From: an uncultured delta proteobacterium
Lineage (GTDB): Bacteria; RBG-13-61-14; DRUE01
DNA: 13,550 nt
NCBI GenBank assembly: GCA_903930515.1
Contig: CAIYYW010000155.1
Span: 1-13,550 of the forward strand
Direction of reading: 5' to 3'
Position 1 is the first letter of the stretch; each line of letters opens with the position of its first letter. The position numbers were made by a program, and so were the translations under genes. Positions 2,224 to 12,018 of the stretch are shown here, one piece after another. The notes below the pieces were generated by a model, which had not been told where the DNA came from, did not search any database, and worked only from the letters and a program-made list of their open reading frames with translations.

Positions 2224-3726
2224 CTAATAAAGCTTAAGCAGCGGGAACCGTTCAAGTTCGGCTTTGATCTCTTCATCTATTTTCTTCACATCGCTCTCTA
2301 GCGAGTTAATTTTCTTTTTAATCTCAGGATGATTGGCAATGTATTTCTTGGCCTCCGGATCGGTGCTGGTTCTTTTGTAATCGGGAGGGCTGATTTTATA
2401 CTTATCGGCAATAGCGGTAAATGCGGAAACGAGCGACTTGTTGGCATCAATTGCCTTGTCGTTCAGTTCCGGATCATTGGCTTGGCTGGATTTCAGGAGC
2501 TGTAGAAATTTGCTTTTATGGTCCTTCGACAAAGACAGCTTGTCTGCTTCAAATTGATAAAAAATCTCTGGAGAGATCAGGTTGCCCTCCACCTCCGGAC
2601 TGATTGTCGCTAGAGCCCCTAATGCGGCGCTGTGCACAAAACCCTCTTCGTCTTTCAGCATCTTTCTAAGAACGGGAACTGCGTCTTTCGCCTCTGGTCC
2701 GATTTCCCGAAGCGCCACTGCTGCAGATCCTTGTATGTCGTCATCATCCCTTTTTAAGGCCTCGATGAGAATAGGGATTGCGGCGACTCCGATTTTTCCG
2801 AGTTCCCTAATTGCATAGCCGCCCACAAATTTATTTTTGCTTTTTAATGTCTCGGAAAATACTCGAATGGCTTCATCCGTGGAAGGCGGATACATATAAG
2901 ATATAATGATCGGCATACAGTCCAATGCTGCATTTATTGTTGTCAATCCTGCGCTGGAATCGCGCTCGATCCCCACCTTCCACTGGAAGTCTCCAGGATG
3001 CTCAATATATTCCGGCAACTTGGAGCTTTGGGTGGAATGGCAGCTTTTCTTTGTCTCTCCCTTGTTCTTAAGACTAATGTTCACCCTGTTACTCGCCGCC
3101 GGACATGCATAGCCTGCATCGTAAGACCCACACATTTTCCTGATTTCAATAACGACAATAAGCTCATTCTCCGCTCGCTCCGATGATGTGATTACATAAC
3201 CCATTGCGGTTATTGGACTTGTTATATATCTTTCGCGTTCGTAAAATAGCTGTCCAGGTATTTCAAAATTGGAGTCAATCTTGGTCGTGATTCTTATGAA
3301 TTTATTCAGTCGTGTGCGCGCTTCATCCGCGAACTTGTTGTTGGGATATTCTTGAAGGAATTGCTCGTAGGCCTCGGGGGTGTCGGTTTTTCTAGCATGT
3401 TTGAAAGGCAGTTCTTCTATGCGCAAGAGCGCTTTATCGGTAAAGCTGCCCTTGGGGTATTTCGCCAGGAAGCTTTCGTAGGCCTCTATGGTGTCGGCCT
3501 TTTTAGCGGCCGAGAAATTGAGCGCCTCAATTCTCGATAGTGCCTCGCCAGCGTATTTTTTATTGGGGTATTCCTTTAGAAAATCTTCGTATGCTTCAAC
3601 GGTGTCAGCCTCTTTCGCCGATTTGTAGGCCCGGGATTCGCATCCAGAAACCATAACGACGAAAATGACCGCAATCATCATCCTTTTTGTTTTATCGTCC
3701 TTGTTCATTCTCATATGGGTTTCCAT
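2224..3726 (-). CDS. Lipoprotein with three 37-aa TPR-like repeats and HEAT-like repeats
   Basis: 500 aa. A basic N-terminus and the hydrophobic stretch MMIAVIFVVMVSGC end in a lipobox with Cys29, so it is a predicted lipoprotein. Three tandem 37-residue repeats follow (about 35-145), each with the pattern ADT-EAYE-FL-EYPN-K-ADEA---I, similar to TPR-like units of YbgF/BamD-type envelope proteins. Residues 146-280 form a Cys-containing region I do not recognise. About 283-378 are PBS-lyase/HEAT-like repeats (AIPILIEALKRDDDDIQGSA and AVPVLRKMLKDEEGFVHSA). The C-terminus is helical and charged. The likely role is protein binding at the envelope; no catalytic motif is seen. The start is uncertain: ATGs at 3726, 3714 and 3708 are in frame and none has a strong ribosome site. 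It appears less GC-rich than neighbouring operons, which suggests separate acquisition. Repeat copy B lies just upstream. Confidence 0.75.
   Translation of the reverse strand: METHMRMNKDDKTKRMMIAVIFVVMVSGCESRAYKSAKEADTVEAYEDFLKEYPNKKYAGEALSRIEALNFSAAKKADTIEAYESFLAKYPKGSFTDKALLRIEELPFKHARKTDTPEAYEQFLQEYPNNKFADEARTRLNKFIRITTKIDSNFEIPGQLFYERERYITSPITAMGYVITSSERAENELIVVIEIRKMCGSYDAGYACPAASNRVNISLKNKGETKKSCHSTQSSKLPEYIEHPGDFQWKVGIERDSSAGLTTINAALDCMPIIISYMYPPSTDEAIRVFSETLKSKNKFVGGYAIRELGKIGVAAIPILIEALKRDDDDIQGSAAVALREIGPEAKDAVPVLRKMLKDEEGFVHSAALGALATISPEVEGNLISPEIFYQFEADKLSLSKDHKSKFLQLLKSSQANDPELNDKAIDANKSLVSAFTAIADKYKISPPDYKRTSTDPEAKKYIANHPEIKKKINSLESDVKKIDEEIKAELERFPLLKLY
3292..3624 (-). repeat. 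Three in-frame tandem 111-bp repeats within the lipoprotein gene
   Basis: Three copies of a 37-codon unit encode residues 35-145 of the lipoprotein. The aligned Asp residues are D41, D78 and D115, exactly 37 apart, and each unit contains EAY-(E/Q)-FL and YP. The units are similar but not identical in DNA, so the duplication is not recent. Confidence 0.8.
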
Positions 3727-3783
3727 TTCATTGTACTTGTATGTTTCCGCCCTTCAGGCTCTGTTTTCGGTGCCTACCGCAGA

Positions 3784-3829
3784 TGACCTGCCCCCAATAC
3801 TTGTACCATTTTTTTAGTTAGTGTCAACC
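3784..3829 (-). repeat. Dispersed 45-bp repeat, copy B (promoter-like, ahead of lipoprotein)
   Basis: On the minus strand it reads GTTGACACTAACT, a run of A, then TGGTACAAGTATTGGGGGC and AGGTCA. TTGACA (complement of 3822-3827) and TACAAG (complement of 3800-3805) are 16 bp apart and point at the lipoprotein start about 74 nt further on. Copy D matches 42 of 45 bases with no gap. Similarity to copy C extends outward to about 3845 (CTTGC--CCGGGG). The promoter reading is inference: TTGACA is a perfect -35 box, but TACAAG is an imperfect -10. Confidence 0.75.
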
Positions 3830-3860
3830 ACTCTTGCTACCGGGGATGGGCCGAACCAGC

Positions 3861-3887
3861 TAAAAAGAGGGCCTTCGGGCACCCTCT
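3861..3887 (-). terminator. Rho-independent terminator, leftward
   Basis: On the minus strand AGAGGG (3887-3882) pairs with CCCTCT (3871-3866) around a ten-base loop, followed at once by TTTTA. On the plus strand no T-run follows, so it acts leftward. It would stop transcription coming from the cyclase side just before repeat copy B and the lipoprotein gene. Confidence 0.55.
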
Positions 3888-4219
3888 TGATTCGCTTTCA
3901 GGCCAGGAGGGCTAATGGCTGTCACCCCAAAACCACTCTCAGGATTAACCCTACGATTTGCAAAACGGTTGAGAAAATTTGCCAAAAGCCCAGTTTTTCC
4001 TTCTTGCTCATCTCAGATCTCCTCCCCCGTGTTCCTCTTTCAGCTTCTTTTCAGCCCAAAAGGTTTGGTCAATGGTGCGGCTGGCGAACTGGAAAAACAT
4101 GGATCGGCAGGTTTCCCCAAAAATTGCCTTGGGAAATACACAACCGATTCCACAACCGAAAATAGCCGTCCTCGGAAATGCAATAGAATCAAGCGATTAT
4201 CTGGCGCGAGGAGGGGGAA
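3888..4219. other. Gene-free spacer, probably decayed sequence
   Basis: Reading frames here are short, overlapping, Cys/Pro/Ser-rich and without recognisable motifs or ribosome sites, so I call no gene. A GGCTGTCACCCC word lies at 3917-3928. A near match, GGCTGTCCCCCC, lies at a comparable place after repeat copy C (5958-5969). This suggests that the spacers after copies B and C are remnants of related elements. Confidence 0.35.
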
Positions 4220-4465
4220 TTGAATCTAAAAGGGGTCCGGAACTCTCCCCGTACTCACAAGGACAGGATCAAGACTAAAGCCGGACAAATTCCAGGACTT
4301 GGACAGGATAATCAGACTGATGCGGACAGGCCCGGAACTGCCCCGGAACCGGCTAAAGAACATAACTGGCACATAACAGATTCCGACCTTCGCGCCGTGG
4401 TTGACGCATGGCCGAATTTGTCGGAATCAATAAAGGCAGAAATAGTTAAAAAAATAAAAATGTAA
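4220..4465 (+). CDS. Small hypothetical ORF with a helical C-terminal tail, possibly a remnant
   Basis: 81 codons from a TTG start preceded by GAGGAGGGGGAA, a strong ribosome site; the frame is open back to 4187. The first 50 residues are polar and low in complexity. Residues 52-81 form a probable helical hairpin, ITDSDLRAVVDAWPNLSESI followed by KAEIVKKIKM. The pattern L--V---W--L----K--I---I recurs in the remnant ending at 6267. From memory, such short tails are found at the ends of tyrosine-recombinase-type ORFs in environmental genomes; no search was made. It may be a real small protein or the preserved 3' end of a decayed gene. Confidence 0.4.
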   Translation: MNLKGVRNSPRTHKDRIKTKAGQIPGLGQDNQTDADRPGTAPEPAKEHNWHITDSDLRAVVDAWPNLSESIKAEIVKKIKM

Positions 4466-4548
4466 AAAAACTATGACCCACTACTCATGCCGAACCTGGC
4501 TTGGTTTTAAGGCAAACTTAACCACTGGTTCAATTTTTGGGGGGCAGA

Positions 4549-5856
4549 TCAGCCGATCACTTCGTAGATCTTGATCGGCTCCGGCAGGCCCTTGAGAGAA
4601 ATTTCGCCCTGCTGCAAGCACTTGATCTCGTCCTTGACAAGCAGGTAGGTGCTGTGGCTGATGGTGATACAGTCCGGCTTGGACACCGTTTCGAGGCGCG
4701 AGGCCAGGTTGACCGCCCCGCCCACCGCAGTGTAACTCAAACGTTCCTCCGAGCCGAAGTTCCCCACCGTGGCATAGCCGGTGTTGATCCCCACCCGGAT
4801 GTGCAGCGTGTCCTCGTAGCCCTGCTCCTGCCATTCCCTGCGCAGCCCGTCCAGCCGCGCCTGCATTTCCAGCGCCATCTTCACGCAGTCCAGCGCGTGC
4901 CGCCGGTCGTCGATGTACTCCGGGTCCCCGAAAAAGATCATCAAGGCGTCGCCTATGAACTTATCCACCGTCCCGCCCCACTTGTGCGCGATCTTGCTCA
5001 TTTCCGACAGGTAGCGGTTCAGGATTTGCCTGACCTCCTCCGGCTCCAGCCGGTCGGTCCAGCGTGTGAACCCCTGCACATCCGAGAATAAAATGGTCAG
5101 CCGCCGCCGGCGGTAGTCGGGCAGAGGCTGGTCCTGCTCCCCGGCCAGCGCTTCCACGAACTGGTGCGGGAGGTAGGTCTGGAGTTTTTCGCTCAACCGG
5201 TTGACCTTGTCCTGCTCCGCCCGCAGCCGAGCGTCCGACCCGGCGATAAACGCACTTAAGAACAGGCCCAAAATCAGTAGCGCGCAATAGGAAAAGAAAA
5301 TCAAGAAGTTGTTGTACACAGTCAGGCTCGGCTGCGGCCGCGCATAAAAAGGCGTCACGATGCTTTTGGCGATCATGGTCGCGATCAAACAGAACGAGAT
5401 GAAGGCCACCATCGCCAGCATCTTTTTCCATTTGCCGGGCGGGAAGATCAGGATGGTGATAATCACCATCGGGATGAAGTTGACATACCCGAGCGCGCCC
5501 TTCTCGTCGAAGAACACCGTCATGCACGACTGGAAAAACACCACCGCCGTGGCAAAGAGCATGGCCGCGGTCGAATGGCGTCCGGTCTTGCTTAAGATCA
5601 ATACCGCCAGCATGGCCACAATCGCCAGCGAGACCGGGATATGGTTGATGTAGAACCCATTCAGCAGACTACCCGCGTCCGGGCCGAGACCTTTCAACAG
5701 TTCTCCCAGCAGTCCGAGGCCGAACAACACCAGTTCGAAAATTGCCGCCGTGTTCAGCAACTGGATATGCTTCACATTTTCGGGCTTGGTCCGCTCAGTC
5801 ACGCCCAGATTGATGACCAGCATGATCCAGGCCCTGATTTTATATTCCACTCCCAT
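4549..5856 (-). CDS. Membrane-bound class III adenylate/guanylate cyclase
   Basis: 435 aa from ATG at 5856. About six hydrophobic segments fill residues 36-206. A linker with LSEKLQTYLPHQFVEAL (221-237) leads to a class III cyclase domain (about 250-435). Metal-binding aspartates are in ILFSDVQGFT (D259) and KFIGDALMIFFGDP (D303). K299 matches the purine-specifying Lys, and VNLASRLE supplies N383 and R387. The Asp that pairs with that Lys in adenylate cyclases (WGDAVN in Mycobacterium Rv1625c) is Gly380 here (VGGAVN), so ATP preference is not assured. It would make a cyclic nucleotide at the inner membrane; no receptor gene is adjacent. The frame is open upstream to 5937, but those codons are the repeat. 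ATG at 5823 is an alternative start. Repeat copy C abuts the start. Confidence 0.85.
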   Translation of the reverse strand: MGVEYKIRAWIMLVINLGVTERTKPENVKHIQLLNTAAIFELVLFGLGLLGELLKGLGPDAGSLLNGFYINHIPVSLAIVAMLAVLILSKTGRHSTAAMLFATAVVFFQSCMTVFFDEKGALGYVNFIPMVIITILIFPPGKWKKMLAMVAFISFCLIATMIAKSIVTPFYARPQPSLTVYNNFLIFFSYCALLILGLFLSAFIAGSDARLRAEQDKVNRLSEKLQTYLPHQFVEALAGEQDQPLPDYRRRRLTILFSDVQGFTRWTDRLEPEEVRQILNRYLSEMSKIAHKWGGTVDKFIGDALMIFFGDPEYIDDRRHALDCVKMALEMQARLDGLRREWQEQGYEDTLHIRVGINTGYATVGNFGSEERLSYTAVGGAVNLASRLETVSKPDCITISHSTYLLVKDEIKCLQQGEISLKGLPEPIKIYEVIG

Positions 5857-5902
5857 TGGCCTTGCCCAAATACTTGTATCACCCTTTAAGTTAGTGTCAA
5901 CC
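5857..5902 (-). repeat. Dispersed 45-bp repeat, copy C (promoter-like, abuts cyclase start)
   Basis: On the minus strand TTGACA (complement of 5895-5900) and TACAAG (complement of 5873-5878) are again 16 bp apart. TACAAG ends 16 bases before the ATG at 5856. If this is a promoter, the leader would be only about 10 nt, or about 40 nt if ATG 5823 is used. Similarity to copy B extends outward to about 5918 (CTTGC--CCGGGG). The gene-proximal GGCAAGGCCA differs from the GGGCAGGTCA of the other copies. Confidence 0.75.
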
Positions 5903-5988
5903 CCCCTTGCCTCCGGGGCCGGTGGCTTATACCCCAAGGAACTGTGAGGACGATGGCGGCTGTCCCCCCCCTGGCAAAAATTTTCTAA

Positions 5989-6267
5989 GGAGGGCCAAAC
6001 CGAGACAACTCCGCTGCAGAAACCGCGAAAATCCGCACAGAATACAGCGATGAGCAGGGTTCAGAAAACGGCCTGAATTACAACTCCATTACACCTTCTT
6101 CACACTTACCCGACACTCCTTTGCACAAAAAGTGTGCCCTATGTGTGCACAAAAATTCTCTCCGACTCGCGCCCGAGCTGGAGTTTGTCAAGAGCGTCTG
6201 GGCCGACCTCGACGACGAGGTCAAACAAAAAATCCTAGCCATTATCTCAAAGGAGGTAATACCATGA
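5989..6267 (+). pseudogene. Remnant ORF with the shared L--V---W--L tail motif
   Basis: A frame opens after TAA (5986-5988) and runs to TGA at 6265-6267, with no good ATG start. It contains a C-A-L-C pair (HKKCALCVHKN) and ends in ELEFVKSVWADLDDEVKQKI LAII (6175-6246). That segment has the same spacing of L, V, W, L, K, I and I as the small ORF ending at 4465. The final TGA overlaps the ATG of the next gene (ATGA), which would allow translational coupling. GC use is uneven and the 5' part looks random, so I treat it as a decayed gene or preserved 3' end. It may still be a short ORF from a non-ATG start such as TTG 6121 or GTG 6145. Confidence 0.35.
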
Positions 6268-6467
6268 AGGTGAAGGATGTCACTCCAAAAGGGTTGGCAT
6301 GCATCGCCGGTGGTTGCCCAGCGATTTTCAAGACTGACAGAGGCACCTATCTCATCATCGGGACTAATCTGGATTCAGCCAGAGGTCTGCTCTCCGACAG
6401 AATCGGGCCGAATGAAGTTGTAATCGAAGTCCCGGCCGAGCTTGTGCGAAGCATCAAACTCATATAG
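6264..6467 (+). CDS. Small conserved hypothetical protein (CPAIF/TDRGTY type)
   Basis: 67 aa. ATG at 6264 is preceded by a near-perfect AAGGAGGTAAT ribosome site and overlaps the previous frame by ATGA. Recognisable elements are CPAIF (18-22), TDRGTYLIIG (24-33) and EVVIEVPAEL (51-60), giving a short beta-rich protein. It has Cys13 and Cys18. I recall similar small proteins (CPA/T-[IV]-[FY] then TDRGT) next to XRE-type regulators, notably in actinobacteria, but no function is known to me and no such regulator is seen here. The strong ribosome site and motif-rich sequence make it a real gene. A terminator-like hairpin follows at 6494. Confidence 0.65.
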   Translation: MKVKDVTPKGLACIAGGCPAIFKTDRGTYLIIGTNLDSARGLLSDRIGPNEVVIEVPAELVRSIKLI

Positions 6468-6493
6468 GCCTTTGCCCGGGAATTGCCGAAGGG

Positions 6494-6521
6494 AGGGAGA
6501 CTATAGGTCCCCTTTCTTTCT
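6494..6521 (+). terminator. Candidate rho-independent terminator
   Basis: GGGAGAC (6495-6501) pairs with GTCCCC (6507-6512) with one bulged A and a TATAG loop, followed by TTTCTTTCT. It lies 27 nt after the stop of the small protein gene and about 90 nt before repeat copy D. The T-run is interrupted by C, so efficiency is uncertain. Confidence 0.4.
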
Positions 6522-6611
6522 GACCTGTTCACTCTAAAATAGACGAATTCTTAAAGGATACAAAAGGTTGCTTTTATCAGCCTTCCCTGCATACCGCTCC
6601 CTCAAATGGGT

Positions 6612-6656
6612 GTTGACACTAACTGGAGAAATGGTACAAGTATTGGGGGCAGGTCA
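6612..6656 (+). repeat. Dispersed 45-bp repeat, copy D (promoter-like, ahead of hydrolase)
   Basis: On the plus strand it reads GTTGACACTAACT, then GGAGAAA, then TGGTACAAGTATTGGGGGC and AGGTCA. It matches copy B (reverse complement) at 42 of 45 bases. TTGACA is at 6613-6618 and TACAAG at 6635-6640, 16 bp apart. The hydrolase ATG at 6679 lies 38 nt after TACAAG, with GTGGAGGAAAA as ribosome site in between. This gives a sensible promoter-leader-start layout. Confidence 0.78.
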
Positions 6657-6678
6657 TTTCGCAAGTGGAGGAAAAGCG

Positions 6679-7614
6679 ATGCGTAAAAATCGGGCGACAG
6701 TAATCAATGGATTGACTCTGGCGATAATCCTTTTGGCCTCGATGGCGGCCCAAGCCAAGGGAAACCCCTGGAACCCTCCGCCCTATTTCGCGCCTGAGCA
6801 TTACGCCCAGATCGAGGGCATGAAGATCTGCTACCTGGAAGCGGGCGAGCAGAACCCGCAGGCCATTGTCTTCATTCACGGCTTCTCCGGCGACGTCCAG
6901 AACTGGTGGGACCAGTACGAATACTTCAAGAGCCAGTATCACGTGGTGGTGATTGACAATCCGGGCCACGGCAAGTCGGAGCGGCGCAAGGACATCAAAT
7001 ACTCGATGGCGCTGGACGGCAAGACCGTGATCGGGCTGATGGACTTTCTGGGGATCAAACAGGCGATCGTGGCGGGCAATTCCATGGGCGGGCATATTGC
7101 CGCCTGGGTGGCCATCAATTACCCAGACCGGGTGACCAAGCTGGCGCTCTCGGACGCGGCCGGGGCCTCGGACATGCGCGGGCTGGCCATTTTGGCTCCG
7201 TTTGTGAACCCGGCCACCATGAAAAGCATGGGCTACACCTCCGGCAACCAGTACAAGCCGACCACTTCCCAGAACCAGGCCCGCTCCGCTTTTATCAAGA
7301 GCTTTGACGGCACTGAGGAAGGGAACCTTTATTCGGACGCGCTGGCCAAGTCCATCAAGAACCTGGTCATGAACCCCATCAAAAAAGACCTGCCCAAAAT
7401 CAAGGCGGAGACCCTGTTGATATGGGGAGACAACGACCCGACGGTCAACCCCAAGGCCATGGACACTTTCGCCAGACTCATCCCCAACACCAAGCGCTAC
7501 CTGGTGCCTCAGGGCGGCCACACGCCGCACATGGACAAGCCGGCGGAGTTCAACTGCGCGGTTGAGAATTTCATCCAGGGCAAGGATATGAGCGCCTGCC
7601 ACAACGCCAAATAA
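6679..7614 (+). CDS. Secreted alpha/beta-fold hydrolase
   Basis: 311 aa. The N-terminus (MRKNRATVINGLTLAIILLASMAAQAKG) is a Sec signal peptide, probably cut after AQA. The frame is open upstream to 6568, but that part is the repeat, and GGAGGAAAA supports ATG 6679. The fold marks are an oxyanion loop FIHGFSGDVQNWW (65-77), VIDNPGHGKS (91-100), the nucleophile elbow GNSMGG with Ser135, Asp253 in LLIWGDNDPTV, and His281 in PQGGHTPH. It therefore has a complete Ser-Asp-His triad. Such enzymes hydrolyse esters, lactones or C-C bonds; the substrate cannot be told. Cys293 and Cys307 near the end could form a disulfide after export. Transcription is probably from repeat copy D. Confidence 0.88.
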   Translation: MRKNRATVINGLTLAIILLASMAAQAKGNPWNPPPYFAPEHYAQIEGMKICYLEAGEQNPQAIVFIHGFSGDVQNWWDQYEYFKSQYHVVVIDNPGHGKSERRKDIKYSMALDGKTVIGLMDFLGIKQAIVAGNSMGGHIAAWVAINYPDRVTKLALSDAAGASDMRGLAILAPFVNPATMKSMGYTSGNQYKPTTSQNQARSAFIKSFDGTEEGNLYSDALAKSIKNLVMNPIKKDLPKIKAETLLIWGDNDPTVNPKAMDTFARLIPNTKRYLVPQGGHTPHMDKPAEFNCAVENFIQGKDMSACHNAK

Positions 7615-7646
7615 ATCTGGCCGCGTCAAAGCGGGGGGACAATCGA

Positions 7647-7866
7647 GTGGACATCATTGACCTGCGAAGCGACACCGTGCCCCTGCCATCGCCGGCCATG
7701 CGCCAGGCCATGGCCGAGGCTGATGTGTGAGGCGATGTGTACGGAGAGGACCCCACCGTCAACAGGCTCCAGGAAACCGCCGCCAGGCTCATCCGCCCTC
7801 TTTGTGCCCTCCGGCACCATGGCCAACCTGCGGGCGCTGTGCGAACCGCTCGTCGGGAAAGGATGA
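7647..7866 (+). pseudogene. Threonine aldolase N-terminal fragment, broken
   Basis: From GTG 7647 the frame reads VDIIDLRSDTVPLPSPAMRQ AMAEADV, then TGA (7728-7730), then GDVYGEDPTVNRLQETAARL. After a frameshift near 7785 a second frame continues ALFVPSGTMANLRALCEPLV and stops at 7866. These are the consecutive N-terminal blocks of PLP-dependent L-threonine aldolases (IDLRSDTVT--P--AMR, VGDDVYGEDPTVN, FVPSGTMGN). The remaining ~250 residues, including the PLP lysine region, are missing. Nonsense, frameshift and truncation together make it a pseudogene. It follows the hydrolase by 32 nt. Confidence 0.8.
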
Positions 7867-7890
7867 AAAAAAACATGGTATTGAGCACCC

Positions 7891-7920
7891 TTGACCTGCC
7901 GGCGGATTTGGCTTTTTAAT
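7891..7920 (+). promoter_or_regulatory. Candidate sigma70-type promoter for the trehalase gene
   Basis: TTGACC (7891-7896), 18 bp, then TTTAAT (7915-7920). Each box has one mismatch to consensus. It lies about 55 nt before the trehalase ATG at 7976 and just after the aldolase remnant. Predicted by eye only. Confidence 0.35.
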
Positions 7921-7975
7921 CAAATTGGGGTGAAATGTTGTTTGATAAAACCAAGACAAGGCTCAGGGAGGGCTG

Positions 7976-10003
7976 ATGAAGACACAACAAGCCATTAAAG
8001 TTTTTTCGGTGGTCTGCTTGGCCGCCGGCATGCTGATTTTTATGGGCGCCAATCCAAGCGCTGAATGCGAATGTCCTCTTTCATCGTCCATCAAGGTAAA
8101 GGTGGAACAGACTTTTCAAAGACTTCTTGCCGACGAAGACACGGACGGAGATGCCAAAATAACCATAGACGACCGTCAGACCGGGACCTCGGCCAAAGGC
8201 GATAAAAAATTCACGCTTGAGAGCCCGGACGGGAAATGCGCGGTGGTGAACGACACCTGCCAGTTGTCGCTCCTTTTGCAGGAGCTTGCCCTGGCGCGGG
8301 AGAACGGAGCGCGCGAGCTTGAGGTCACGCCCGCAATGATGGCCGAGCGGCCCGCGGACCGCATCTCCCGGCTCATCCGCGAGAGATATTGGGACGCGCT
8401 CACCCGCCGCATCGACGCTGAGCATCTAAGCGCCATGCTCACCGACGAGAAACAGGTTTCGGTTGACGGGTACAGGCATTTGTATGTTCCCGGTGATGAC
8501 CTTGCGGCGTTTGCATACTTTGAAAAGGCCGGCTCGCTCCACCCGGAGTGGAAGCTCAAGGTCGGGCTGCTGCCGGAAAATATCACCCCGGAATACGTGC
8601 GCGGGCTGGACGGCCGGCACGGCATTTTAAGCCTCAGGCTGATTGACGACAACGGCGCAATCAAAGGCGTTCCCTTTGTGGTCCCGGGCGGGCGGTTTAA
8701 CGAGATGTATGGATGGGACTCCTACTTTGAGTCGCTCGGACTCATAGCCGATGGGAGGCCCGAACTGGCGCGCGCCATGGTTGATAATTTTGTGTATCAG
8801 ATTGAGCATTACGAAAAAATCCTCAACGCCAACCGCAGCTACTATCTAACGCGCTCGCAGCCGCCGTTCCTCACCTCCATGGCGCTCGCGGTCTATAATT
8901 CCGGGTCCAAAGACGCGGCGCAAAAGGAATGGCTGGCCGGGGTTTTCCGCGCGGCCATCAAGGAATACCGCCAGGTCTGGACCGGGCCGGAGCGTTTGAC
9001 CGGCACAGGTCTTTCCCGCTATTTTGATTCCGGTCGCGGCCCCTGCCCGGAGGTGGAGCCTAGGCATTACGACTCCATGATCAGGCCTTATGCGGACGCC
9101 GTCGGGCTTTCGCCCGCGGAGTGGCTGGCGCAATATGAGGCCGGAAAAATTGCCAGCCCGGAGATGGACAAGTTTTTTATCCATGACCGGGCGGTGCGCG
9201 AATCCGGGCACGACACCACCTGGCGTTTTGACAACCGCACCGCTGATTTTGTGAGCGTGGATTTGAACTCTCTGCTTTACAAACATGAAACCGACATAGC
9301 AGACACGATTCAAAACGAGCTTGGCGGCAGTCTCAGGATGCCGGACGGCGCGGTGGAGACCCCCAAGCCCTGGCGCGACAGGGCGAGCCGCCGGAAAGCC
9401 GTCATGAATAAACTCATGTGGTCCCAGGAACAGGGAATGTTTTTTGATTACGATTTTATCAACCGCAAAAGGTCCGGGTATGTAAGCGCAACAACCTTCT
9501 ACCCGCTCTGGGCCGGAATCGCCACCAGGCAGCAGGCGGCCGCGCTGGTTAAAAACGCGCTCCCGCTTTTGGAGATGCCGGGAGGGGTGGCGGCCACGGC
9601 GGAGAAGTCGCGCGGGCCGGTCACCGAAGCCCGGCCACAGCGCCAGTGGGATTACCCGTATGGCTGGGCTCCCCATCAGATGCTTATCTGGGAGGGGCTG
9701 TCCAACTATGGCTATGGGCAGGACGCCCGGCGTCTGGCCTACAAATGGCTCTACATGATCACCCGCAACGCCGCAGACTACAACGGGGTCATCCCGGAGA
9801 AATACGATGTGGCTGCCATGACCCACCAGGTGTTCGCGGGATATGGCAACGTTGGCACCCAGTTCAGTTACATCACCAAGGAAGGCTTCGGATGGATGAA
9901 CGCGTCCTTCCAAGTCGGCCTTAAACTGCTCACCCCGGAAATGAGGGACAAATTAAACGGGCTGGCAAAGCCTGAACAGGTATTTGCCAAATCAAGGCCC
10001 TGA
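7976..10003 (+). CDS. Periplasmic trehalase (GH37) with N-terminal EF-hand-like motif
   Basis: 675 aa; splits alpha,alpha-trehalose into two glucoses. An N-terminal hydrophobic segment (about 9-25) is a Sec signal, so it acts outside the cytoplasm. Both trehalase signatures are present: PGGRFNEMYGWDSY (237-250) and QWDYPYGWAP (557-566). RESGHDTTWRF supplies the catalytic acid Asp413, VIPEKYD the base Glu608, and GFGWMNASF follows near the end. Residues 55-66 (DTDGDAKITIDD) resemble an EF-hand calcium loop, within an extension longer than in E. coli TreA (about 565 aa). ATG 7976 follows GGGAGGG. A candidate promoter lies at 7891. No trehalose transporter or regulator is next to it. The treA symbol is withheld because orthology was not tested; the family assignment is certain. 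Confidence 0.93.
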   Translation: MKTQQAIKVFSVVCLAAGMLIFMGANPSAECECPLSSSIKVKVEQTFQRLLADEDTDGDAKITIDDRQTGTSAKGDKKFTLESPDGKCAVVNDTCQLSLLLQELALARENGARELEVTPAMMAERPADRISRLIRERYWDALTRRIDAEHLSAMLTDEKQVSVDGYRHLYVPGDDLAAFAYFEKAGSLHPEWKLKVGLLPENITPEYVRGLDGRHGILSLRLIDDNGAIKGVPFVVPGGRFNEMYGWDSYFESLGLIADGRPELARAMVDNFVYQIEHYEKILNANRSYYLTRSQPPFLTSMALAVYNSGSKDAAQKEWLAGVFRAAIKEYRQVWTGPERLTGTGLSRYFDSGRGPCPEVEPRHYDSMIRPYADAVGLSPAEWLAQYEAGKIASPEMDKFFIHDRAVRESGHDTTWRFDNRTADFVSVDLNSLLYKHETDIADTIQNELGGSLRMPDGAVETPKPWRDRASRRKAVMNKLMWSQEQGMFFDYDFINRKRSGYVSATTFYPLWAGIATRQQAAALVKNALPLLEMPGGVAATAEKSRGPVTEARPQRQWDYPYGWAPHQMLIWEGLSNYGYGQDARRLAYKWLYMITRNAADYNGVIPEKYDVAAMTHQVFAGYGNVGTQFSYITKEGFGWMNASFQVGLKLLTPEMRDKLNGLAKPEQVFAKSRP

Positions 10004-10386: not shown

Positions 10387-12018
10387 ATGAATTGCGAGTA
10401 TTTTATCCGGAAAATGATGCTTGCGGCTATCACGCTCCTTGTGAGCATATCTTTTGCCGCTAAGGCCGATGATTTATGCTCCAAACCGGTCACAACCAGG
10501 ACCGGACAGGTGAGCGGCATGGATGATAAGGATTCCAAGACCTGCGCCTGGCTCGGCATACCTTACGCTGCGCCTCCGGCGGGAGACAACCGTTGGCGCG
10601 CGCCTCAACCTGCGGTGCCATGGTCCGGGGTGCGCGAGACTAAAGCTTTCGGCCGGCGCTGCATGCAGTCCGGCGGTCTGATGGAAAGCGCGAACTCGGA
10701 CCCCTCCGGCGGTATGTCCGAGGACTGCCTTTTCCTCAACATCTGGCGGCCGGACAAGCCGGGCAAGTTCCCGGTCATGTTTTTTATTCATGGCGGCGCC
10801 TATGTTGTTGGCTCGGGCAAGGATGACCCCGGTGGCAAGCTTGCGGAATTCGGCGATGTAATTGTGATTACCCTCGACTATCGGCTTGGCGCGTTCGGAT
10901 TTCTCGCCACTCCGGCTCTGCGCGAGGAAGACCCTGACAAAATGGTAGGCTCTTACGGCTCGCTCGACCAGGTTGCGGCAATCAAATGGGTCCATGACAA
11001 CATCGCGAATTTCGGTGGAGACCCCTCCAATATCACCATCTTCGGACAGTCCGCTGGGGGATGGAGCGTTTGCACCATGCTCGCCACCCCGCTGGCCAAG
11101 GGCCTCTTCTCCAAAGCCATCATTGAAAGCGGCGGGTGCGAGTCCACGGAAACGCTCGATCAGGGTTATGCAACGGGCGCGATCATCGCCAAAAAAGTCG
11201 GGTGCAAGGTTGATGATCTAAAATGCCTGCGCGCGGTGCCCGCGGAAAAACTGGTCGTAAGCGGACCGGGAGACATTCTCAAGAAGGGTTTCATATTCTT
11301 TCCGCATGAGGACGGGTATCTGCTGACCGGTACGCCTCTCTCCATGATTCGCTCGGGAAATTTCAACAAGGTTCCACTCATGGCCGGCAGCAACAAGGAA
11401 GAAATAAATGCCGCGGTCACGGCCGTCCGTCCCCGGCTGGCCTATGCTTTGCCCTTTCAATACGAAAGCCGTATCATCCGCGACCTGAATGTCACCAAGG
11501 AAGAGGCCAAAAAGGTCGAGCAGGCATATCCGTTGAGAAAATACGAGAACAGCCCGGGGGAAGCCTTTGGATATATCCTGACTGACATGCTCCTTGCCTG
11601 TCCGACCTATTTCGGGCTGGAATCCTTCGCCGGCCAGGATGCGCCAACTTTTTATTACCGCTTTGATTACCGCGGTATGAACAACGGCAGCGTTGTCGGC
11701 GCCATGCATACAATGGAAGTGCCGCTGGTTTTCAATTCCATAGGCGAAGGCTCAAGTAAAAATATCGACCAGGCCCGCGAGTTGAGCAGAATCATCCAGA
11801 GCTATTGGACCAACTTCGCCAAGACCGGAAATCCCAACGGTCCTGATCTCCCGGTCTGGCCCCGGTTTGAGCCCAGCCATCAGACCGTCCAAATCCTGGA
11901 CACCGAGGTCAGGACCGAGCAGAGCGATTCCGGACAGCGCTGCGCGCCCTGGGACGGATATCCGCAAACCCATACGCCGGCCTGGAAAAACCTGGGTAAA
12001 CACGAAAAACACAAGTGA
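10387..12018 (+). CDS. Secreted type B carboxylesterase
   Basis: 543 aa, the typical length of type B carboxylesterases (para-nitrobenzyl-esterase-like). ATG 10387 follows CAGGAGGG at good spacing. The basic N-terminus and MMLAAITLLVSISFAAKADD form a Sec signal. Family marks are IPYAAPPAGDNRW (58-70), EDCLFLNIWRP (112-122), the oxyanion HGGAYVVGSG (135-144), GSLDQVAAIKWVHDNI (191-206), the nucleophile FGQSAGG with Ser222, the acid Glu339 in GSNKEE, and His441 in GAMHTMEVP. The triad is complete. It hydrolyses carboxylic esters outside the cytoplasm; the natural substrate is unknown. Several Cys residues (31, 53, 92, 114, 251, 273, 280) could form disulfides. It follows the broken 10083 ORF by 54 nt, and no terminator separates them. 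Confidence 0.92.
   Translation: MNCEYFIRKMMLAAITLLVSISFAAKADDLCSKPVTTRTGQVSGMDDKDSKTCAWLGIPYAAPPAGDNRWRAPQPAVPWSGVRETKAFGRRCMQSGGLMESANSDPSGGMSEDCLFLNIWRPDKPGKFPVMFFIHGGAYVVGSGKDDPGGKLAEFGDVIVITLDYRLGAFGFLATPALREEDPDKMVGSYGSLDQVAAIKWVHDNIANFGGDPSNITIFGQSAGGWSVCTMLATPLAKGLFSKAIIESGGCESTETLDQGYATGAIIAKKVGCKVDDLKCLRAVPAEKLVVSGPGDILKKGFIFFPHEDGYLLTGTPLSMIRSGNFNKVPLMAGSNKEEINAAVTAVRPRLAYALPFQYESRIIRDLNVTKEEAKKVEQAYPLRKYENSPGEAFGYILTDMLLACPTYFGLESFAGQDAPTFYYRFDYRGMNNGSVVGAMHTMEVPLVFNSIGEGSSKNIDQARELSRIIQSYWTNFAKTGNPNGPDLPVWPRFEPSHQTVQILDTEVRTEQSDSGQRCAPWDGYPQTHTPAWKNLGKHEKHK

Follow-up and report, generated by a model that had tools for sequence, protein, structure and literature searches.

The window, the entire contig C155 analysed over its full length of 13,550 nucleotides, contains four copies of a short repeat that probably represents a compact promoter module of about 50 bp, present in few copies and serving a few non-homologous genes, with element–gene pairings made and lost over time. 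We infer transcription from the module, a shared regulator and the route of copying from the DNA sequence. The element itself is discrete and very low in copy number: the draft genome (3.65 Mb, 401 contigs, 93% complete) holds five copies, four of them inside 4.6 kb.

All four window copies placed by the first-pass annotation at 2019, 3784, 5857 and 6612 are present, ungapped and far above chance. Relative to copy 2 as the reference, the other three match at 41/44, 35/44 and 35/44 bases, compared with a best match of 27 of 44 bases in 500 Markov-1 random windows. The conserved block spans roughly 50 bp, starting with a G-run ahead of TTGACA and ending with GGTCA, and reads (A)AGGGGGTTGACACTAACTTAAAGRGTGGTACAAGTATTGGGGGCAGGTCA in promoter orientation. 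Pairwise identity of the copies is mostly 73–93%. No homology of the flanks was found outside the block (three weak alignments in 30 tests, little above the number expected), so the boundaries of the element are sharp.

Table 1 Copies of the element in the window and the genes that follow them
Feature	Position	Strand	Sequence parts	Support
Copy 1 (orphan)	2019–2062	−	TTGACA 2057–2062; CGCAAG 2035–2040 in −10 position	Alignment; profile 57.9 bits
Copy 2	3784–3827	−	−35 TTGACA 3822–3827; TGn; −10 TACAAG 3800–3805	62.6 bits
Conserved box of copy 2	3784–3799	−	TATTGGGGGCAGGTCA	
Copy 3	5857–5900	−	−35 5895–5900; −10 TACAAG 5873–5878	59.4 bits
Copy 4	6613–6656	+	−35 6613–6618; −10 TACAAG 6635–6640	60.0 bits
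Lipoprotein gene (TPR/HEAT-repeat), downstream of copy 2	2224–3726	−	Lipobox VSGC	HEAT_2, YfiO matches
Membrane adenylate/guanylate cyclase gene, downstream of copy 3	4549–5856	−		PF00211, E 4.7e-29
Alpha/beta hydrolase gene, downstream of copy 4	6679–7614	+	Signal-like N terminus	PF00561, E 1.3e-31

The full genome and its relatives were searched with the consensus, as had been suggested earlier. BLAST with a consensus built from the window copies only revealed one further copy in the whole genome, at C359:396-443 just before a methyltransferase gene, and a single copy in the only same-genus genome compared (G001), at C418:2719-2772 before an RCC1-repeat lipoprotein gene (E 1e-10 and 2.5e-10). 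A profile of all six copies recovers exactly those six, with E values of 1e-16 to 6e-15, and the next match has E 0.07 or worse; in the same-order genome (G002) this profile found no convincing copy. A strict pattern gave 0 matches in 191 other genomes. A degenerate pattern was scanned over about 85,000 species genomes, a set that may lack records very close to the genome of the window; it matched the G001 record (an uncultured delta proteobacterium of the 'AlinenSedimentsD2' set) and two others, in Photobacterium and Nanoarchaeota, which the profile does not support and for which the rough chance expectation is about 2. A phage or plasmid origin was rejected, as neither collection gave a match, and the single IMG/VR pattern match is likewise unsupported by the profile.

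Five of the six copies are co-oriented with a gene and lie 0–57 nt from its start codon, including the three window copies (2, 3 and 4) for which this arrangement had been claimed. Copy 2 is separated from the lipoprotein ATG (3726) by 57 nt and copy 4 from the hydrolase ATG (6679) by 22 nt, with GGAGG upstream of the hydrolase. The 3′ end of copy 3 abuts the cyclase ATG (5856), so the predicted cyclase leader is about 10 nt. Outside the window, 6 nt lie between the C359 copy and the start of the methyltransferase gene (C359:451), which encodes a 2Fe-2S-thioredoxin-like N terminus and is followed by a carboxylesterase gene, and 45 nt between the congener's copy and its RCC1-repeat lipoprotein gene. 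Copy 1 is directed antisense at the 3′ end of an acetoacetate-decarboxylase-like gene and has no co-oriented start downstream. When orientation and distance to the start codon were scored, as had also been suggested, the placement departed from random: five of six copies within 60 nt of a start gives P = 1.4e-4 against random intergenic placement in the same contigs, with gene starts called from ORFs rather than curated annotation. The value is P = 1.4e-3 with a limit of 100 nt, and P = 0.005 for the four window copies alone under the same null.

Sigma-70-type promoters have a −35 element close to TTGACA, 16–18 nt to a −10 element close to TATAAT, and a transcript start 5–9 nt downstream. The element agrees with this type in its −35 and its spacing: TTGACA occurs in five of the six copies and TTGATA in the sixth, and the spacer measures 16 nt, or 17 nt in the G001 copy, which is inside the sigma-70 tolerance. 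The arrangement TTGACA, 16 nt, TACAAG, reported earlier for the three gene-facing window copies, indeed adjoins the lipoprotein, cyclase and alpha/beta-hydrolase starts. In addition, the TG dinucleotide of an extended −10 is invariant (6/6). The −10 hexamer carries four of six consensus bases in the five gene-facing copies, with no T at position 6; the orphan copy 1 has two, and it is the sole copy so decayed. The first two −10 bases vary in copies 1 and 5 and the downstream TATT does not; the box after the −10, TATT..G...AGG.C, is nearly invariant across the six copies. Taking the start as 7 nt after the −10, conservation spans about −42 to +10.

Bases vary more inside the spacer than elsewhere in the element (P = 0.005 when the region is set by promoter anatomy), and an unguided window test of variability gives P = 0.05–0.4, depending on window length; these statistics are modest because there are only six copies. 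A freer spacer between conserved parts is what a promoter with an operator would be expected to show. The earlier promoter reading is thus consistent with the placement, the pattern of conservation and the −10 decay in the only copy without a gene. TACAAG is a poor −10, a standard promoter consensus scan calls none of the copies, and copy 5 departs from the others at a critical base of the −10; a strong constitutive promoter therefore appears less favoured than a regulated one with an operator. The copies fold no better than shuffled sequences (z −0.7 to +1.2) and contain no palindrome, including an operator palindrome. No Rfam match to a known RNA such as a riboswitch or leader was obtained at the gathering threshold, and no tRNA was found in the scanned loci (window 2298–5327, window 5113–8142 and both outside loci).

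The association between element and gene differs between the two species. In the congener, the gene orthologous to the C359 methyltransferase (66% identity) lacks the element and has its own ribosome site, GGAGGAGG. Synteny around the methyltransferase differs on both sides, so either the promoter or the gene may have moved. RCC1-repeat proteins are very strongly expanded in the window's genome, with 56 matches spread across many contigs, and none of their genes carries the module according to the six-copy profile, whereas one does in G001. The methyltransferase ortholog without the element and the RCC1 carrier found only in G001 indicate that element–gene pairings turn over within the genus. 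The first-pass annotation had reasoned that the genes are unrelated and that the element itself explains the placement. This is plausible, as the downstream genes are non-homologous and the congener ortholog of one lacks the element, but a small shared regulon remains a serious rival. RCC1-repeat proteins as such are also present in the congener and were not found in the same-order genome.

In the promoter module that we propose, a consensus −35 (TTGACA), a spacer of 16–17 nt and an extended but weak −10 (TGn-TACAAG) would be followed by the conserved box TATTGGGGGCAGGTCA lying over the presumed start point, and each gene-facing copy would initiate transcription of the gene 0–57 nt downstream. 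Given the weak −10 and the conserved box, all copies may respond to a common regulator. In both congeneric species the module has come to precede genes that are not homologous, with pairings gained and lost most likely via local recombination or duplication. It could be used by a small regulon or act as a mobile-promoter-like sequence, mobility being a candidate property only. If the copies are working promoters switched between genes of two related species, they would provide a clean small example of promoter acquisition by copying. If they constitute a regulon instead, a methyltransferase operon would be tied to a membrane cyclase and to proteins that are secreted or lipid-anchored, in a lineage about which little is known.

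Mobile promoters are described in PMC8049555, which cites Matus-Garcia, Nijveen & van Passel (2012) and van Passel et al. (2014), as repeated promoter-like sequences upstream of non-homologous genes within a genome. Compared with that description, the module is similar in being a short promoter-like repeat before non-homologous lipoprotein, cyclase, hydrolase and methyltransferase genes, and it differs in its few copies, its strong clustering and its identity of mostly 73–93%, with mobility here only a candidate.

An ordinary small regulon is a somewhat unlikely account: functionally linked genes whose operator and promoter are kept alike by one transcription factor, the clustering reflecting a co-regulated neighbourhood and no DNA being copied. 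The crowding of four of five copies into 4.6 kb would fit such a neighbourhood, and the −42 to +10 position, the co-orientation with genes and the two conserved blocks flanking a variable spacer are shared with regulon promoters that have a common operator. Moreover, carboxylesterase genes (PF00135) lie downstream in both element-bearing loci, at window 10387–12018 and C359:1905-3563. On the other hand, the near-identity over about 44 bases (80–93% in the best pairs) is longer than usual and exceeds that of most operator–promoter pairs, the orphan copy has no gene in front of it, the downstream genes share no obvious or known pathway, and the congener's methyltransferase ortholog does without the element.

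It is improbable that the module is a miniature element or the degenerate end of a transposable element, in the form of a solo terminal repeat whose promoter points outward and which may be akin to the GGGGTCAGGTCT ends of this lineage's Y1 (TIRYT/RAYT-type) transposases. Copies 2 and 4 form an inverted pair (46 nt, 93% identity) around 2.87 kb, the box TTGGGGGCAGGTCA agrees with the transposase ends TTGGGGTCAGGTCT at 12/14 positions, and all three genomes encode Y1 transposases (5, 6 and 19 matches). Many of these are bounded by GGGGTCAGGTCT ... AGACCTGACCCC ends fitting GGGGWSAS, the motif in which 'TIRYT' elements end (Di Nocera et al. 2013, PMC3733652). The G-rich box of the module, GGGGGCAGGTCA, is close to this motif but, as GGGGGCAG, breaks it at W (PMC3733652). 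Its orientation is also reversed: Y1 elements have GGGG.. at the outer boundary and the promoter inside, whereas the module has its promoter on the outside and its inside is unrelated, the order of box and promoter thus being opposite to that of TIRYT/TIRtron terminal repeats. In addition, no transposase lies between the copies, the module has no self-complementary tract, and the profile detected it at no Y1 transposase end or locus. There is neither target duplication nor flank homology, and the copies are too few and too clustered for random transposition. Even variation would be expected along a transposon relic that is drifting, whereas conservation of the module is uneven. A TIRYT transposase end was rejected on the reversed arrangement and the absence of the module from the Y1 transposases of all three genomes.

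Quite improbable, too, is local spread of the module as a mobile promoter, some 50 bp long, that resident Y1 (TIRYT-type) transposases would move in trans via the GGGGNCAGGTC box and that would wire unrelated genes into one expression programme. The Y1 genes at seven loci (L087, L092, L094, L097, L102, L103 and L109) lie inside inverted repeats composed of GGGGTCAGGTCT and about 13 further bases, which vary among elements but agree at both ends of any given element. A promoter-like TTGAC(A) often occurs just inside the left end. Putative solo GGGGTCAGGTCT ends with an AT-rich tail were seen at L052:1392, L025:1773, L044:979 and L081:2291; one of them is located upstream, by about 100 bp, of the gene in G002 that is related to the window's alpha/beta hydrolase.

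We give very little credence to a functionless relic of local segmental duplication: four copies share one 4.6 kb stretch and one is visibly decayed, but there is no homology beyond 50 bp, the uneven decay spares the −35 and TG, and the gene-proximal position is kept in a second species.

REP and REPIN sequences are palindromic, GTAG-tagged repeats of high copy number, tens to thousands per genome. The module resembles these and MITEs in being short, intergenic and repeated, and is unlike them in having five copies per genome and no palindrome, GTAG tag, usable terminal repeats or target duplication. MITE hallmarks are absent, as the ends share only TGAC/GTCA (4 bp), no target duplication is seen and the flanks are unrelated. 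The REP/MITE or transposon-end resemblance proposed by the first-pass annotation is therefore unsupported: there are five copies in 3.65 Mb, four of them clustered, with no palindrome, usable terminal inverted repeat or target duplication, and the genome's Y1 transposases end differently; REP/MITE was rejected for its mismatch in copy number, structure and flanks. A composite transposon with copies 2 and 4 as its ends was also rejected: target duplication is lacking, and the DNA between the two copies holds no intact transposase. An integron-like array of cassettes, with single genes between direct repeats spaced 1765/2073, was rejected as well, the repeat having no attC-like core sites or fold.

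The earlier statement that there is no transposase is correct for intact genes of the window, but window 5997–6269 (+) is what is left of the C terminus of a phage-type integrase. This relic has copies of 62–83% DNA/protein identity at C282 and, in G001, at C309, and its protein sequence is about 49% identical to the tail of a Phage_integrase ORF on C140, which is intact and encodes 497 aa. The region of a small ORF after the relic (6264–6467) matches DNA downstream of the C140 integrase. Within window 4198–4465 (+), TGGCGCGAGGAGGGGGAATTGAAT looks like a reversed tRNA 3′ end (an attachment-site scar); behind it comes a short ORF whose ending resembles an integrase tail, and the C282 integrase relic (L126) is preceded by a similar stretch. 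Separately, window 3341–3618 contains three repeats with 111-bp spacing, in the part of the lipoprotein gene that encodes TPR/YfiO-like repeats.
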